Part shown: piece after piece, positions 49,235-54,900 of the stretch
Layout: each line of letters begins with the position of its first letter
Numbering within the stretch: the stretch's first letter is position 1
Source of the DNA: Anaerococcus jeddahensis
GTDB lineage: Bacteria; Bacillota; Clostridia; Tissierellales; Peptoniphilaceae
Assembly (NCBI RefSeq): GCF_001182725.1
Contig: NZ_CWHU01000005.1
Span: 372,001-436,000, forward strand
DNA length: 64,000 bases
Direction of reading: 5' to 3'
The notes under the pieces: generated by a model
The model's input: the letters and a program-made list of their open reading frames with translations, nothing else
What the model was told of the DNA's origin: nothing
Databases searched by the model: none
Translations under genes and position numbers: made by a program

Positions 49235-49611
49235 ACGTAAAAATTGAAAACCTCGCCAGTGAAATAATGAAAGGCTTAGAAGAATATTCTGATATGGCAA
49301 CAGATGAAGTCAAAAAGGAAGTCAAAAAGGCTGGTAGCAATATTAGAAAAGACATACAAGAAAATGCACCTGTAGGAGAAACAAAGAAATATTCTAAATC
49401 TTGGTCAGTAAAAACTATAAAAGAATCTTCGAACTCAATAGAACTTGTGGTCCATTCAAGAAATAGATACCAACTGGCTCATCTACTTGAGAAAGGCCAT
49501 GTTCTTAGGCAGGGAGGAAGAGTGTCTGCTAAGCCTCATATTGGACCAGCTGAGGAGAAAGGAATCAGAGAATTGGAAGAAAATATAATGAGGAAATTAC
49601 AAGATGGATAG
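49231..49611 (+). CDS. HK97 gp10-type tail-connector protein
   Basis: A 126-residue protein of the HK97-gp10 family (KVKKAGSNIRKDIQENAPVGETKKYSKSWSVK-like middle, then LLEKGHVLRQGGRVSAKPHIGPA). It starts with GTG overlapping the head closure stop (GTGA). It probably forms part of the tail completion complex. Confidence 0.85.
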   Translation: MNVKIENLASEIMKGLEEYSDMATDEVKKEVKKAGSNIRKDIQENAPVGETKKYSKSWSVKTIKESSNSIELVVHSRNRYQLAHLLEKGHVLRQGGRVSAKPHIGPAEEKGIRELEENIMRKLQDG

Positions 49612-49930
49612 GCTATTAAAAATAATTGAAGAGATTGGACTTCCCTTTGCATACTCGCACTTTGCTGAAGGAGAAAGTCCAGACCCACCATTTTTGGTTT
49701 ATCTATTTCCAAAGAATAAACACTTTGGTGCAGATGGAGTAGTTTTCTATAAAAATACTCAGATAGACTTAGAACTTTACACTGATAAGAAAGATTTAAA
49801 ATTAGAAGAAAAGATAGAAGAGATACTTGATAGAGAAAAAATCTATTATGAAAAATCTGAAGTTTGGATTGAATCAGAAAGATTTTATGAAGTTCTCTAT
49901 GAATTTACTATGGAGGTAAAAAATGGCTAA
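49604..49930 (+). CDS. Tail completion-like protein
   Basis: A 108-residue protein (LLKIIEEIGLPFAYSHFAEGESPDPPFLVYLFP...) in the position of the tail terminator protein of siphoviruses, just before the major tail gene. The DPPFLVYLFP stretch is common in such small proteins. It overlaps the gp10-like gene by 8 nt, and its last codons overlap a partial copy of the major tail start. Confidence 0.72.
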   Translation: MDRLLKIIEEIGLPFAYSHFAEGESPDPPFLVYLFPKNKHFGADGVVFYKNTQIDLELYTDKKDLKLEEKIEEILDREKIYYEKSEVWIESERFYEVLYEFTMEVKNG

Positions 49931-50102
49931 TAAAGTTAAATTTAATATTTGTAATGTTAATGACCTAACCCCACGAGCATTGCGAGTGGAAGGTAGGTCA
50001 GATGTCACGCAATCCAATTCTCTGCGACTGATAAGGAGCGAAGAGAATTGTGATGGAGCTGACTCACTACAATTTATGGGAGGTAACAATTATGGCAAAT
50101 AA
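49923..50102 (+). pseudogene. Truncated extra copy of the major tail protein start
   Basis: A 59-codon open frame begins MANKVKFNICNV, the same first 12 residues as the real major tail gene at 50092, then runs into unrelated sequence (NDLTPRALRVEGRSD...) and stops inside the second copy. It has its own GGAGG site. The 12 shared codons differ at five third positions, all synonymous. Either it is a decayed duplicate or a short leader peptide is still made. Confidence 0.65.
49965..50073. other. Compositionally distinct insert between tail gene starts
   Basis: About 109 nt between the two copies of the tail gene start look less AT-rich (roughly half G+C by eye) than their surroundings. They contain complementary arms CAATTCTCT / AGAGAATTG and CCAC / GTGG. 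No tRNA or known element was recognised. Confidence 0.55.
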
Positions 50103-50688
50103 GGTAAAGTTTAATATTTGTAATGTACACTACGCTCTCTTCGATAAAGCTGAAGAGGGCGTTATTAAATATAAGACACCAGTTCCAATGCCTGGTGCTG
50201 TTTCAATTTCATTAGATCCAAATGGAGAGCCTGAAAGCTTTTATGCAGATGGAATTGAATACTACACTATTTCAAACAATATGGGATATGACGGAGATTT
50301 AGAAATCGCCCTTATTCCAGAATCCTTTAGGACTGATGTTTTGATGGAAAAATCAGATTCTAACAAAGTTCTTATTGAGTCTTCAAATTCTGAAACTGCA
50401 AACTTTGCACTGTTATTTGAGTTTGATGGTGACCAAAAGAAAATCCGTCATGTCATGTATAACTGCTCAGCAGCAAGACCTACTCTTGAAGGAGAAACCA
50501 ACGAGGAATCAAGAGAAGTTCAACCAGAAACCTTATCTATTCAAGCAAGACCACTTCCAAATGGAAATGTAAAGGCTAGAACAGGTGAAGAAACTACGAA
50601 GGAAACTTACGATGGTTGGTATAAGTCAGTCTATATGCCAACAGAAACGACAGTAACACCTTCAAGAGCAAGTGTTGGAGGTAAATAA
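50092..50688 (+). CDS. Major tail protein, phi13 type
   Basis: A 198-residue major tail tube protein of the phi13 family (MANKVKFNICNVHYALFD, PVPMPGAVSISLDPNGEPESFYADGIEYYTI, GYDGDLEIALIPESF). The start ATG 50092 has GGGAGG eight nt upstream. An in-frame GTG-ATG at 50050 behind AAGGAG could give a form with 14 more residues. The chaperone gene follows in 2 nt. Confidence 0.9.
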   Translation: MANKVKFNICNVHYALFDKAEEGVIKYKTPVPMPGAVSISLDPNGEPESFYADGIEYYTISNNMGYDGDLEIALIPESFRTDVLMEKSDSNKVLIESSNSETANFALLFEFDGDQKKIRHVMYNCSAARPTLEGETNEESREVQPETLSIQARPLPNGNVKARTGEETTKETYDGWYKSVYMPTETTVTPSRASVGGK

Positions 50689-50690
50689 AT

Positions 50691-51047
50691 ATGGCACTAA
50701 CCAAGAAAATTCAAATCGATGGGAAAGAAGTTGTTTTCCGTGCATCAGCAGCTATCCCAAGAATCTATAGATTAAAGTTTGGTCGAGATATCTTCAAAGA
50801 CTTAATGGAACTTGAAAAATCCATGAAGAACAATGATGAAGACAAATCTAATCTTGACATAGGTTCACTTGAGTTGTTTGAAAATATAGCCTATGTAATG
50901 GCAAAGCATGGAGATAAATCTGTGCCAGATAGTCCTGAAGAATGGTTGGATAATTTCTCAACCTTTTCAATTTACCAAATTCTACCTCAGTTAATTGAGT
51001 TATGGGGACTTAACATCAAGTCGGAAGAAGTTCCTAAAAAAAAGTAA
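50691..51047 (+). CDS. Tail assembly chaperone (gpG-like)
   Basis: A 118-residue gpG-type chaperone that coats the tape measure protein during tail assembly (KKIQIDGKEVVFRASAAIPRIYRLKFGRDIFKDLMELEK and LIELWGLNIKSEEVPKKK). The gene ends in CCT-AAA-AAA-AAG-TAA, which contains the slippery heptamer A-AAA-AAG just before the stop, so part of the ribosomes should shift -1 and make the longer gpGT form. Confidence 0.88.
   Translation: MALTKKIQIDGKEVVFRASAAIPRIYRLKFGRDIFKDLMELEKSMKNNDEDKSNLDIGSLELFENIAYVMAKHGDKSVPDSPEEWLDNFSTFSIYQILPQLIELWGLNIKSEEVPKKK
51038..51044 (+). promoter_or_regulatory. -1 ribosomal frameshift site A-AAA-AAG
   Basis: The heptamer is in the zero-frame register X-XXY-YYZ, identical to the efficient dnaX signal, and is followed at once by the zero-frame UAA. 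The -1 frame stays open for 61 codons. Confidence 0.85.
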
Positions 51048-51229
51048 GACCAACAGAAAGACCAATGACTACACCCTTGTTTCTATTAAGGGCTGTAGAA
51101 TTAGGTCTTTCTGTTTCTGATTTATCCCTACTAACAATTGGACTTGTAAATGATATGTTCACAGAAAAGAATAACGATGACTATAAATACAAAGAAGTAG
51201 CTACGCAAGAAGACTTCGATAAATTTTAA
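51044..51229 (+). CDS. gpT-like extension reached by -1 frameshift
   Basis: A 61-codon open frame (VRPTERPMTTPLFLLRAVELGLSVSDLSLLTIGLVNDMF...DFDKF) has no ribosome binding site of its own and continues the gpG frame after a -1 shift, giving a fusion of about 179 residues. LSVSDLSLLTIGLVNDMF is typical of gpT-like tail chaperone extensions. Its stop TAA overlaps the stop codon of the convergent toxin gene. Confidence 0.82.
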   Translation, partial: VRPTERPMTTPLFLLRAVELGLSVSDLSLLTIGLVNDMFTEKNNDDYKYKEVATQEDFDKF

Positions 51230-51555
51230 TCCTCAAGCTTAGCTACTCTTTTTTCAGCATCTTTATAGACTTTGGATTCCGCTCTTGCACCGATAATAAT
51301 GACAAGAACTTCATCATCTGATTTTTCCAATTTATAAACGATCCTAAGACCTGAACTCTTAAGTTTAATTTTCATAAGACCAGCAAGCTTAGAATCAGAT
51401 AGGTTAGAAAGAGGCTTGCCATAGCCACCTTCGGTATTAGGAAGAGGATTTATTAAGATCCTCTTAAGTGCTTTATCGACAATTTTTCTTTGAGATCCAT
51501 CTAAGGCTTTATAGTCTTGGATGGCTTCTTTTATAAAGGATAGTTTGTAGTTCAT
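51226..51555 (-). CDS. RelE/ParE-type toxin
   Basis: A 109-residue RelE/ParE superfamily toxin: MNYKLSFIKEAIQDYKALDGSQRKIVDKAL, then GGYGKPLSNL..LAGLMKIKLKSSGLRIVYKLE and IGARAESKVYKDAEKR. RelE-type members cut mRNA on the ribosome, whereas ParE-type members poison gyrase; which applies cannot be said. Its start overlaps the antitoxin stop by 4 nt. It is convergent with the gpGT extension, sharing the stop region. Confidence 0.85.
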   Translation of the reverse strand: MNYKLSFIKEAIQDYKALDGSQRKIVDKALKRILINPLPNTEGGYGKPLSNLSDSKLAGLMKIKLKSSGLRIVYKLEKSDDEVLVIIIGARAESKVYKDAEKRVAKLED

Positions 51556-51875
51556 TCGATTTCGTCCTCATCAAGAGGAGAGACTTCATTTAAATCGATA
51601 TGAAAGGCTTCTTCAAATTCATCTTGAGAAATTAAATCGGATTTATCCATTGATGACATCCTAGTATTGGCAAGCATAAGATCTCTTGCATCTTCGAGCT
51701 CATCAATGAGTTTCGTATATTCATCAGGGGAAACAAGAATGCACTCAGGAGTGTTGTTCTTTAATACGACCTTAGAACCGTTCACTTTGACATCATCAAA
51801 AATACGTCCGGCTAGGCCTCGATTAAATTCAGAAATGGATACAGTCTTGTTGGATAATTCTTTTACAAAATTCAT
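51552..51875 (-). CDS. Phd/YefM-type antitoxin
   Basis: A 107-residue antitoxin with an N-terminal Phd/YefM DNA-binding domain (KTVSISEFNRGLAGRIFDDV, VVLKNNTPECILVSPDEYTKLIDELED) and an acidic C-terminal tail that should bind the toxin. The start was chosen at 51875 behind GAGGTGATAA on the minus strand. It lies directly next to the tape measure start, divergent from it, so autoregulation at its promoter could affect that region. Confidence 0.85.
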   Translation of the reverse strand: MNFVKELSNKTVSISEFNRGLAGRIFDDVKVNGSKVVLKNNTPECILVSPDEYTKLIDELEDARDLMLANTRMSSMDKSDLISQDEFEEAFHIDLNEVSPLDEDEIE

Positions 51876-51964
51876 ACTTATCACCTCAAGATAAGTATAG
51901 CAGAAATCGATAAAAACATCAATAAAAATACTGATAAATATATCTTTAAAAAGGCGGTGAGATA

Positions 51965-54900
51965 TTGGCAAATAGAATAAAAGGGATAACTGTTGAGATT
52001 GGTGGGGATACTACCAAATTACAGACTGCACTAAAACAAGTAAATACTGAAATAAAACATACTCAATCGGAACTGCGTGATGTCAATAAACTTCTAAAAC
52101 TTGACCCTGGAAATACAGAACTTATCTCCCAAAAGCATAAGCTATTAGGACAGACCTTAGAAGAGACAAAGAATAAATTAACCTCTTTAAAAGAGGCACA
52201 AAAACAAGCTGAACAGGCTCTCGCAGAAGGAAAGATTTCCCAAGAACAATATGATGCCCTTAAACGAGAGATTATTGAAACAGAACAAGCCCTTAAATCT
52301 CTAGAAAGGCAAGGGGCAACCACAAATCAGACTCTTCAAAACATAGCTATTACTGGAGAAAAATGGCAAAACACAGGGCAAAATATAGAAAACGTGGGAA
52401 GAAAAATGATGCCAGTATCTCTTGCAGTAGCAGGTCTTGGAGTAGCAGCTGTAAAGACTGCATCAGATTTTGATTCTGGTATGGCAAAGGTAAAAGCAGT
52501 ATCTGGTGCAACAGGGTCCGACTTTGACGCTCTGAGAGAAAAGGCTCGTGAAATGGGAGCCAAGACCAAGTTCTCAGCATCTGAAGCGGCAGAAGCTATG
52601 AACTATATGGCCATGGCTGGTTGGAAAAGTAAAGATATGATTAGTGGTATTGAAGGAGTCATGAACCTTGCTGCAGCTAGTGGTGAGGATCTAGCTACTA
52701 CTTCAGATATTGTCACAGATGCCCTTACAGCCTTTGGTTTAAAAGCAGAAGACTCTTCTCATTTTGCTGATGTTCTTGCTGCTGCATCATCTAATGCCAA
52801 TACCAATGTTTCACTAATGGGTGAGACCTTTAAATATGCTGCACCTATTGCTGGGACACTTGGATATTCAGTTGAAGATACGGCAGTTGCTATTGGTTTA
52901 ATGGCTAACGCAGGAATTAAAGGTTCACAAGCAGGTACAGCTCTAAGAGCTGGACTAACAAGACTCGCATCACCAACTAAAGAAGTTATGAACGGGATGT
53001 CCATGTTAGGCTTATCTATTGAAGATGTACAGGGGCTTTCACTTGATGAGACTCTAAGCACTTTTAGAGTAGCCTTTGCCAATTTAGACGGAACTCAAAA
53101 AGCACAAGCAGCATCCATGATATTTGGTAAAAATGCCATGTCTGGAATGTTGGCAATTATAAATGCCAGTGAGAAAGACTACAACAGTTTGAGTGATGCC
53201 ATATATAACGCAGATGGAACAGCAGAAAAAATGGCTGCTACTATGCAGGATAACCTAGCTGGTCAATTAAAGATCCTACAATCTGCCTTAGAAGAATTAG
53301 CTATATCCTTTGGAGAACTTTTAATGCCTGCTGTTAGAAAAGCAGTAGATATATTAACGAAACTGGTAAATGGACTTAATGCACTTCCAGGACCAGTAAA
53401 AGGTATTATTGCAGGTATCGCCCTTTTTATAGCTGCTCTTGGTCCAGTTCTTATGATTGTAGGAAAACTTATCTGGTCAATAGGAACTATTATGACCAAA
53501 GGACCCCTAATAGTAGGAGGAATTACAAAGATAGTTGGAATCTTTACAGGTACACTTATACCAGCAATCACTGCAGTAGTATCAGCCATTGGTATAGTTC
53601 CTATTGCTATTGGTGCAGTAATAGCTGGACTTGTTCTTTTATGGAAGAAATGTGACTGGTTTAGAGAAGGGGTCATCTCCATATGGGAAACTATTAAGGA
53701 ATCAACTGTTGCCATTTGGAATGGAATAAAAGAATTCTTCGCCAATCTATGGCAAGGAATATCAGAATCTTGGACAAGCACCTGGACTGAAATCACAAGT
53801 TTTCTATCGGAATTTTGGACTGGATTTATTGAAGGGGTGAAGACTACTTGGAAAGGTATCAAGGACTTCTTTGCCAACCTATGGAATGGACTTGCTGAAG
53901 GATGGAATACTATCTGGACATCTATAACAACTTTTCTAACTGAATCTTGGAATACCTTTATTGAGGGAGCCAAGAGTCTATGGCAAAGTTTAGGAGAATT
54001 CTTTACAAGCCTCTGGACGGGAATTCAAACTACTTTTACAAATATATGGACAGCTATTTCAACTACAACTACAGAAGTATTTACAGCAGTTGGTGAGTTT
54101 ATCAGGATTACTTGGGAAGGTGTTAAGACTTTAATTTCAACAGTTCTTGATGCAATCAAAGTAAAAGTTGAAACCATTTGGAATGGACTAAAAGAGTTTT
54201 TAACAACAATCATTACTGCCATTGGAGAATTTATTTCTACATCCTGGACCAATATAAAAACTACAATTGAGACTATCTTGACTTCTATTAAGACAGTCCT
54301 TGAATCAATCTGGAATGGGATAAAGACCTTTATCTCATCAACAATGAATAATATTAAATCCTTTGTTTCATCTGGTTGGAATTCCATAAAGTCGACTATT
54401 TCATCTGCAGTAAATACCGCGAAGTCAGCCGTATCGTCTGCCTTTAATTCTATGAGATCAAGCATTTCATCGACCATGTCAAATATTCAGTCCACTATTA
54501 GAAATGGATTTAATAATGCGGTTAATCATATTAAGAATTTGGCGTCTCAAGCTTATACATGGGGAGCCGATATGATTAACGGAATTGCAAGAGGAATTAG
54601 AAGTGCGATTAGCAATGTGACATCTGCTGTATCTAATGTAGCATCAACTATTAGGTCTTACTTGCACTTCTCTGTACCAGATGTTGGCCCACTTACCGAC
54701 TATGAATCATGGATGCCAGACTTTATGGAAGGTTTATCTAAGGGAATAGAAAAGAGCAGAAGATTGGTCCAATCTTCTATGAAGAATGTAGCAAGCGATA
54801 TGGTTTTAAATCCAAATATATCAACTGTTAGTATGGGTGGACATGATAAAGAATCAGCTATAAATGGAATTGATATAGGTAGACAAATATCCGATGCACT

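Follow-up and report, generated by a model that had tools for sequence, protein, structure and literature searches.

A dispersed two-hairpin repeat inside the major tail protein gene of a phage of Anaerococcus/Peptoniphilus-type bacteria, followed by a second gene head

Why does a phage structural gene begin twice? In the 64,000-nucleotide stretch of the Anaerococcus jeddahensis genome analyzed here (contig NZ_CWHU01000005.1, positions 372,001 to 436,000; hereafter the window), the major tail protein (MTP) gene opens at 49923 with 35 nt that are repeated 169 bp downstream, at 50092, with 89% identity. An initial annotation had described this duplication and had stated that the coding copies differ only at third positions; both statements hold, the four differences being GCT/GCA, AAA/AAG, GTT/GTA and AAA/AAG. 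A ribosome-binding site lies upstream of each start (GGAGG for the first and GGGAGG for the second). The gene belongs to a tailed phage of Anaerococcus/Peptoniphilus-type bacteria. On balance, we lean toward the view that a small, non-autonomous two-hairpin repeat inserted into the MTP gene together with a tandem duplication of the target head, which then diverged.

Empty and filled alleles of the MTP gene

The features of the locus are as follows.
49604..49930, + strand: tail terminator gene, overlapping the first MTP head (phrog_78, E = 3.8e-17)
49912..49916, + strand: native ribosome-binding site GGAGG of the first copy (from sequence; identical in the empty alleles L165, L169 and L174)
49923..49958, + strand: first (native) MTP head, codons 1–12, interrupted by the insert (matches empty L165, L169 and L174 up to AATGTT)
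49923..50102, + strand: 59-codon open reading frame made of the native head, the element and the beginning of the second head (open in the filled loci matched)
49959..50064, + strand: inserted two-hairpin repeat element (bounds from the empty site; match to covariance model R1 at 49958–50065 with 118.4 bits, the window copy being one of the seven sequences used to build that model)
49961..50000, + strand: hairpin 1, TGACCTAACCC ... GGTAGGTCA (fold, covariation)
50001..50065, + strand: hairpin 2, arms CAATTCTCT / AGAGAATTG (fold, covariation)
50065..50070, + strand: native remnant CACTAC, codons 13–14 of the first copy (comparison with empty alleles)
50071..50091, + strand: 5′ flank of the second copy, with ribosome-binding site GGGAGG at 50078–50083 (from sequence; by eye it resembles the native AATTTACTATGGAGG upstream of the first copy)
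50092..50688, + strand: functional MTP gene, 198 codons plus stop, with a recoded head followed by the native body (phrog_88, E = 2.6e-60; divergence profile)

The 28 closest MTP relatives in viral contigs (L164–L191, with 90–100% identical protein) comprise 20 empty alleles, seven with the same arrangement and one, L187, with another insertion. Near-identical prophages include empty alleles as well. Among 199 genomes, six including the window’s own carry the MTP insert at 99–100% identity over a 146-nt query. Empty L165, L169 and L174 read ..GTAATGTT|CACTACGC.., and the filled allele reads ..GTAATGTT[AATGACC....GCTGACT]CACTAC, followed by AATTTATGGGAGGTAACAATTATGGCA. Because the two kinds of allele align in this way, with a clean left junction, the insert is placed at 49959–50064 and CACTAC is assigned to the native gene. 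The insert of ~109 bp proposed initially is thus real, with its length refined to 106 bp; it splits the gene after codon 12 and is followed by the six native bases (50065–50070) and, from 50071, by the second start region. Judged by these alignments, the first head is the native allele and the second, with its ATG at 50092, is synonymously recoded. The initial annotation had named the same arrangement in related phages, with an annotated gene, as counting against its reading; seven of the 28 relatives do carry it, but presence there does not explain the arrangement away. L187 (MTP at 2001) has a different member of the repeat family at the end of the tail terminator gene, directly upstream of the MTP ribosome-binding site, and its MTP start is not duplicated.

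The spacer between the two starts forms two predicted hairpins and folds better than its shuffles (z = −4.05, with 1 of 200 shuffles equally good). The complementary arms noticed earlier, CAATTCTCT / AGAGAATTG, are indeed present within a 12-nt, 92% inverted repeat. The description of the insert as less AT-rich applies relative to the bases just upstream, with a G+C content of 0.46 at 49950–50049 vs 0.23–0.28 in four 100-base windows from 49700 to 49949, but the value is not unique: 49450–49549 likewise has 0.46, and the MTP gene body downstream has 0.33–0.41. The repeat element itself has a G+C content of 0.49. No tRNA or tmRNA was found in the window.

Two other ways of reading the gene were considered. 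A start at GTG 50050, giving 212 codons, is disfavored because close relatives start with MANKVKF after a ribosome-binding site. Ribosomal bypass or splicing is disfavored by the second copy with its own ribosome-binding site and start, by the 169-nt spacing, which shifts the frame, and by the remnant of a filled protease gene (below), which stops within the element.

A dispersed, covarying repeat family

The insert belongs to a family of dispersed two-hairpin repeats with strong covariation. At E ≤ 0.001, a covariance model matched 58 of 121 genomes, the window’s own included, with from one to at least 31 matches each. Seven diverse copies share 35 predicted pairs, 18 of which have changes on both sides. 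Over 81 fetched sources, the model yielded 126 matches, 122 of them distinct; in an alignment of these 122 that was fitted to the model, 33 of the 35 pairs had double changes and 92.3% of cells were paired, a proportion reached by none of 500 shuffles. Compensatory base changes of this kind characterize a structured hairpin element. Double-change cells (579) far exceed one-sided ones among the 122 sequences, an excess which suggests that the hairpins may be kept at the DNA level.

A strict pattern retrieved 25 viral stretches and at least 119 genome stretches, including those of Peptoniphilus, Anaerococcus, Sedimentibacter, Tissierella and Clostridium aminobutyricum. A DNA search of the genomes at E up to 10 matched 186 of 199, mostly by chance, and this tally was not used. 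The search of the insert against genomes that had been proposed at the outset did find relatives in other genomes by DNA similarity, and the “small mobile insert” suggested there is supported by these relatives in phages and chromosomes and by the empty and filled alleles. The insert region alone gave only weak matches, in eight records, against annotated phages. Rfam gave no match at the gathering score over the whole window and none, group II introns included, at E up to 5 over 49850–50200. No description of the family was found in the open-licence papers searched, and it is apparently an undescribed small mobile DNA repeat.

Besides the seven MTP stretches, 18 viral loci hold 22 copies: 10 at the TMP/next-gene junction, three at the following junction, three in the prohead protease gene, two in the terminase leader and four elsewhere. 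At the first four of these sites, the window carries no copy. Where the terminase leader is occupied, the element lies within the T-tract of a terminator-like hairpin, the empty window reading TTTTTTATGCCC and the filled locus TTTTTT[ATGACC..GCGACT]ATGCCC. Close relatives are polymorphic for presence of the element at the same site in MTP, protease, tRNA-Glu and the terminase leader. By eye, other copies adjoin tRNA or rRNA genes.

The element-rich genome G155 displays two further peculiarities. Some of its copies (L060, L063, L067, L069, L079, L082 and L085) have, by eye, an extra module of ~43 nt (..AACCCTGTTGTAGGTTTATGATAGGAGTGTCC..) that separates the two hairpins, an arrangement that brings modular BOX elements to mind. 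It also holds tandem arrays (L065, L066, L071, L072 and L073) with a period of ~121 bp; by eye, all five end in a copy shortened at the 3′ side, at varying points.

Origin of the second head

Four genes, namely those for MTP, prohead protease, tRNA-Glu and tRNA-Asp, have the same anatomy of a gene head, the repeat, 6–8 native bases and a complete second copy. The right end of the element (..GACT, ..GACTT or ..GACA) precedes a native remnant of 6 nt in MTP, 8 nt in the protease gene (3/3 loci compared), 6–7 nt in tRNA-Glu (4/4 genomes given, at a D-loop site) and 7–8 nt in tRNA-Asp (two loci, L307 and L284, by eye). The four tRNA-Glu cases are probably one ancestral event. In both tRNA-Asp loci the element is antisense to the gene, and the order in the gene’s direction, partly read by eye, is again head, element, 7–8 bases and full copy.

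The native protease gene contains a terminator-like hairpin and six T, and the element follows directly after them; then come native GAAGAATT, a second ribosome-binding site and the complete gene. Measured against the closest of 13 empty alleles, the second protease head has 33–36 changes in 117 bases. This divergence runs to +2 from the site of insertion, and beyond that the first base to differ from the window is at +14; in the same comparison, L434 has a second divergent patch in the last bin (16/100).

In Anaerococcus, the element in the tRNA-Glu D-loop is followed by AAGACAY and an intact tRNA-Glu, whose 5′ flank, for example in L044, also resembles the native flank. One tRNA-Glu(ttc) is present in each of eight element-free cluster loci (L519, L521, L522, L523, L525, L535, L537 and L538), with Glu(ctc) beside it in four, and in all four filled loci examined an intact Glu(ttc) accompanies a truncated head. 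The pattern was matched in 16 of the 20 genomes searched, the four without a match falling outside the count. In tRNA-Glu, filler sequence follows some of the remnants. G046 is a weaker fifth case, whose remnant has one mismatch in eight by eye and 3 nt by exact search. Length alone makes a 6-nt remnant weak evidence, since 89 of 2000 random tails matched 6 nt at some point within the 80 nt searched; what counts is its fixed position after the element end. Flank-to-flank similarity exceeded the 95th percentile of the control in 39 of 194 element contexts, tandem arrays and neighboring tRNA genes included, and 15 were inspected; the other contexts have no such duplication.

We propose the following route to this arrangement. 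The element would insert after MTP codon 12 by way of a staggered break, with one nick 6–8 nt beyond the insertion and a second before the start of the gene, and fill-in and joining would leave a tandem duplicate of the head (~66 bp by eye, from ~24 nt before the ATG to codon 14). The element would then sit inside the first copy, 6 bp from its end, and the downstream copy, translated from ATG 50092, would keep the MTP gene working. Flanking repeats that stayed identical would lead to loss of the element, and exchange with native heads would make a diverged second head identical again, so the second heads that survive would be the diverged ones. The native remnant led us to drop a target-site duplication ending exactly at the insertion point. 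That regenerated genes are the ones seen can be ascribed to selection, which does not account for the 6–8 base remnant in the four better cases.

In our reading, insertion and duplication arose in a single event, although they may have occurred separately. This coupling is weakened by L517, L522 and L528, in which a short duplicated tRNA-Glu head (GGCCCTATGGTC..) stands before the intact gene with no element within. Such heads may be what lost insertions left behind, or duplications that arose in another way; they are cut at another base, so they may be unrelated to insertion. The most general form of the scheme, in which a tiny mobile element targets a hairpin plus T-tract, inserts via a long staggered break and copies its victim’s own head, which is then recoded, is in our estimate unlikely to hold in full.

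The pattern of divergence bears on a second explanation, which we regard as possible, albeit doubtful: a diverged phage, perhaps carrying the element upstream of its own MTP gene, served as template for the head when the broken MTP gene was repaired, and the result spread by recombination. Compared with 8 of the 20 empty alleles, the private bases of filled MTP alleles stop at or before +12 in 7 of 10 cases, and L168, L175 and L147 have further private bases between +13 and +78. In L178, L190 and L145, divergence extends to +12, beyond the 6-nt remnant, which pure duplication without linkage does not predict. Repair from a diverged phage accounts directly for the recoding and for a first head that matches the empty alleles beside a second that is recoded, and copying from the break end would likewise set the boundary of divergence where the element inserted. 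Between L178 and empty L165, 10 of the first 16 codons are changed by 11 synonymous substitutions, and codons 17–20 are identical; eight filled alleles fully match some empty allele in bases 61–90; and L187 offers an instance of an element just upstream of the MTP ribosome-binding site. However, no donor emerged from two pattern scans of viral contigs, in which every recoded head came with the arrangement. More distant protease heads gave a mixed picture and do not clearly side with copy 2: among 51 distinct heads compared at seven informative positions, 24 were nearer the native head and 13 nearer copy 2, with 14 ties. The tRNA cases need no foreign donor. The “recombination scar” envisaged initially is thus partly right, in that the second head is either a tandem duplicate or a copied-in head.

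Mobility, alternative roles and related repeats

A further question is how the repeat moves. One answer, which we consider improbable, is that it moves as group IIC introns or other single-strand, replication-linked elements do, served by an enzyme in trans, with a terminator hairpin plus T-tract as its target and no target duplication. Group IIC introns insert just after intrinsic terminators, and one phage case has been reported (PMC4424553, PMC12350094). Their targets are terminator motifs (PMC4424553); among the copies here, such positions are frequent in four genomes but not in the rest. A terminator junction, defined as at least five T in seven bases plus an upstream hairpin, was scored on all 126 copies. 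Twenty-three copies follow another copy in tandem, and 41 of the 103 non-tandem copies have such a junction. Four element-rich genomes account for 37 copies that begin at the T-tract of a terminator-like hairpin, out of 62 non-tandem ones (G155, 18/31; G127, 7/11; G143, 7/13; G139, 5/7), but the frequency elsewhere is only 4/41 (G150, 1/6; G061, 0/12; others, 3/23). For comparison, T-rich positions make up 5.15% of the A-ending positions in loci of G155, G127 and G143, and a terminator-like hairpin accompanies 7.3% (124/1704) of a sample of these T-rich positions; this control takes in coding sequence, and its loci come from the top of the search list rather than at random.

Orientation also fits replication-linked movement, since 45 of 50 G155 loci agree with one switch per replichore (boundaries chosen by eye), but it is confounded with gene direction: for 49 of 61 first copies in the four genomes, the nearest upstream gene feature is a same-strand gene end. 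At the MTP, protease, tRNA-Glu and terminase junctions, a target duplication would amount to 0–2 T at most. Against movement of this type stand the position of the remnant at the opposite element end in tRNA-Asp, the lack of any match to a group II intron or other Rfam family, and RVT_1 genes, which were not found in 3 of 12 element-bearing genomes searched. The ~106-bp element also differs from a ribozyme in size, and is too short to encode a reverse transcriptase; we therefore rejected a group IIC intron proper. Group IIC introns usually come with a reverse transcriptase.

None of four candidate mobilizer families is present in every element-bearing genome searched. Y1 was found in 10 of 12 and RVT_1 in 9 of 12, and IS110 and IS630-type DDE_3 were found in 6 and 2 of 10, respectively, one of the latter two over the cut-off. 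All four are missing from G150 despite its nine listed copies, and G127 (24 listed copies) likewise has no Y1 match. No model match was found in 29 Y1 (HUH) transposase loci fetched or in 23 loci with IS110 or DDE_3, which are part of all matches to these families. Weak element matches occur in 2 of 24 RVT_1 loci. We did not accept as linkage either the 35.5-bit match of L433, which lies ~1.4 kb from the gene at the edge of the locus, or that of L413, with 26.5 bits for hairpin 2 only and nothing at the same place in L420 and L426 of the same genome.

In the broad, MITE-like sense, the family qualifies as a small interspersed mobile repeat, with many dispersed non-coding copies under ~300 bp. 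It is not a canonical MITE. The element ends read (A)ATGACC... and ...GACT in the MTP, protease, tRNA-Glu and terminase copies, and terminal inverted repeats are not the rule: an inverted right end was present in 1 of 14 loci (L017) and, by exact pattern, in 0 of 126 model matches. Target site duplication is likewise not seen beyond those 0–2 T, with two phage stop/start sites ambiguous. A REP/RAYT assignment was rejected because none of the 29 Y1 loci fetched holds an element, and derivation from IS110 or IS630 because no matching transposase element turned up in the 23 loci fetched and neither family is present in all 10 genomes searched. The L017 copy stands apart from the other 13 loci of the first set, in that its inverted right end (GGTTAGGTCATTA) matches the left end.

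The nearest known kinds are the BOX, RUP and SPRITE repeats and the bcr repeats and, for target choice, group IIC introns. BOX, RUP and SPRITE of Streptococcus pneumoniae are described as parasitic, small dispersed structured repeats, over-represented between convergent genes; BOX modules occur in tandem and can create reading frames (PMC3049150). Compared by description rather than sequence, the family here is likewise small, dispersed and structured, but as far as that account goes it differs in that terminator T-tracts are the starting point of many copies, the head is regenerated in some target genes and most copies have no terminal inverted repeats. The bcr1 and other repeats of Bacillus cereus are 100–400 bp long and have many copies, mobile features and a T-rich TTTAT motif; a possible recombination-like mechanism is mentioned, and the first BCR was reported as restricted to the B. 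cereus group (PMC6542083). Unlike bcr1 as characterized there, the family has no TTTAT duplication at readable junctions. REP/BIME repeats with RAYT transposases are described as palindromic and sometimes arrayed (PMC2817692, PMC3733652), as are the repeats here, but none of the 29 Y1 loci fetched had an element alongside.

Copies of the family are numerous in Tissierellia-type bacteria and their phages, at transcript ends and at tRNA and phage structural genes, and it offers several before/after insertion pairs. If the 6–8 base remnant and the regenerated head belong to the insertion chemistry, they would constitute a way into essential genes; to our knowledge, such head-regenerating insertion has no counterpart among described bacterial repeats. 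If the staggered-break reading is true, the insertion event repairs its own victim gene. At the least, the family explains the duplicated MTP start and some odd tRNA fragments in these genomes, and it adds a structured family absent from Rfam as searched.

The insertion also creates the 59-codon frame, which runs from the first head through the element and ends 11 nt inside the MTP start. It is open in the nine filled loci matched, of 10 given, one being the window’s own genome; the nine are nearly identical in sequence, so this openness says little about conservation. Judging by its sequence, the frame is probably translated and may be coupled to MTP translation. A good ribosome-binding site, the open frame, the 11-nt overlap and stable hairpins upstream of a tail structural gene could suggest a regulatory leader, akin to the “leader peptide system” named initially, in which the frame and hairpins control MTP translation or transcript processing and persist for that reason. 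We think this quite unlikely, since 20 of the 28 close relatives manage without the arrangement, the protease remnant meets a stop almost at once inside the element (frame by eye), and copies lie at many unrelated genes and terminators. Finally, short direct repeats can be misassembled, but an assembly error, which the initial annotation had raised against itself, is very unlikely, to the point of being negligible, because the same junctions recur in six genomes and seven viral contigs, some of which may derive from the same isolates.

Two minor observations concern the region downstream. The frame at 50691–51047 after MTP ends near an A-rich run (CCTAAAAAAAAGTAA) and is followed by a second short frame, in a region extending to 51229; tail assembly chaperone genes typically have a programmed frameshift at such a position. 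Inside the tail module, 51226–51971 on the − strand holds two small overlapping opposite-strand genes, which resemble those for a RelE-type toxin and a Phd/YefM-type antitoxin.
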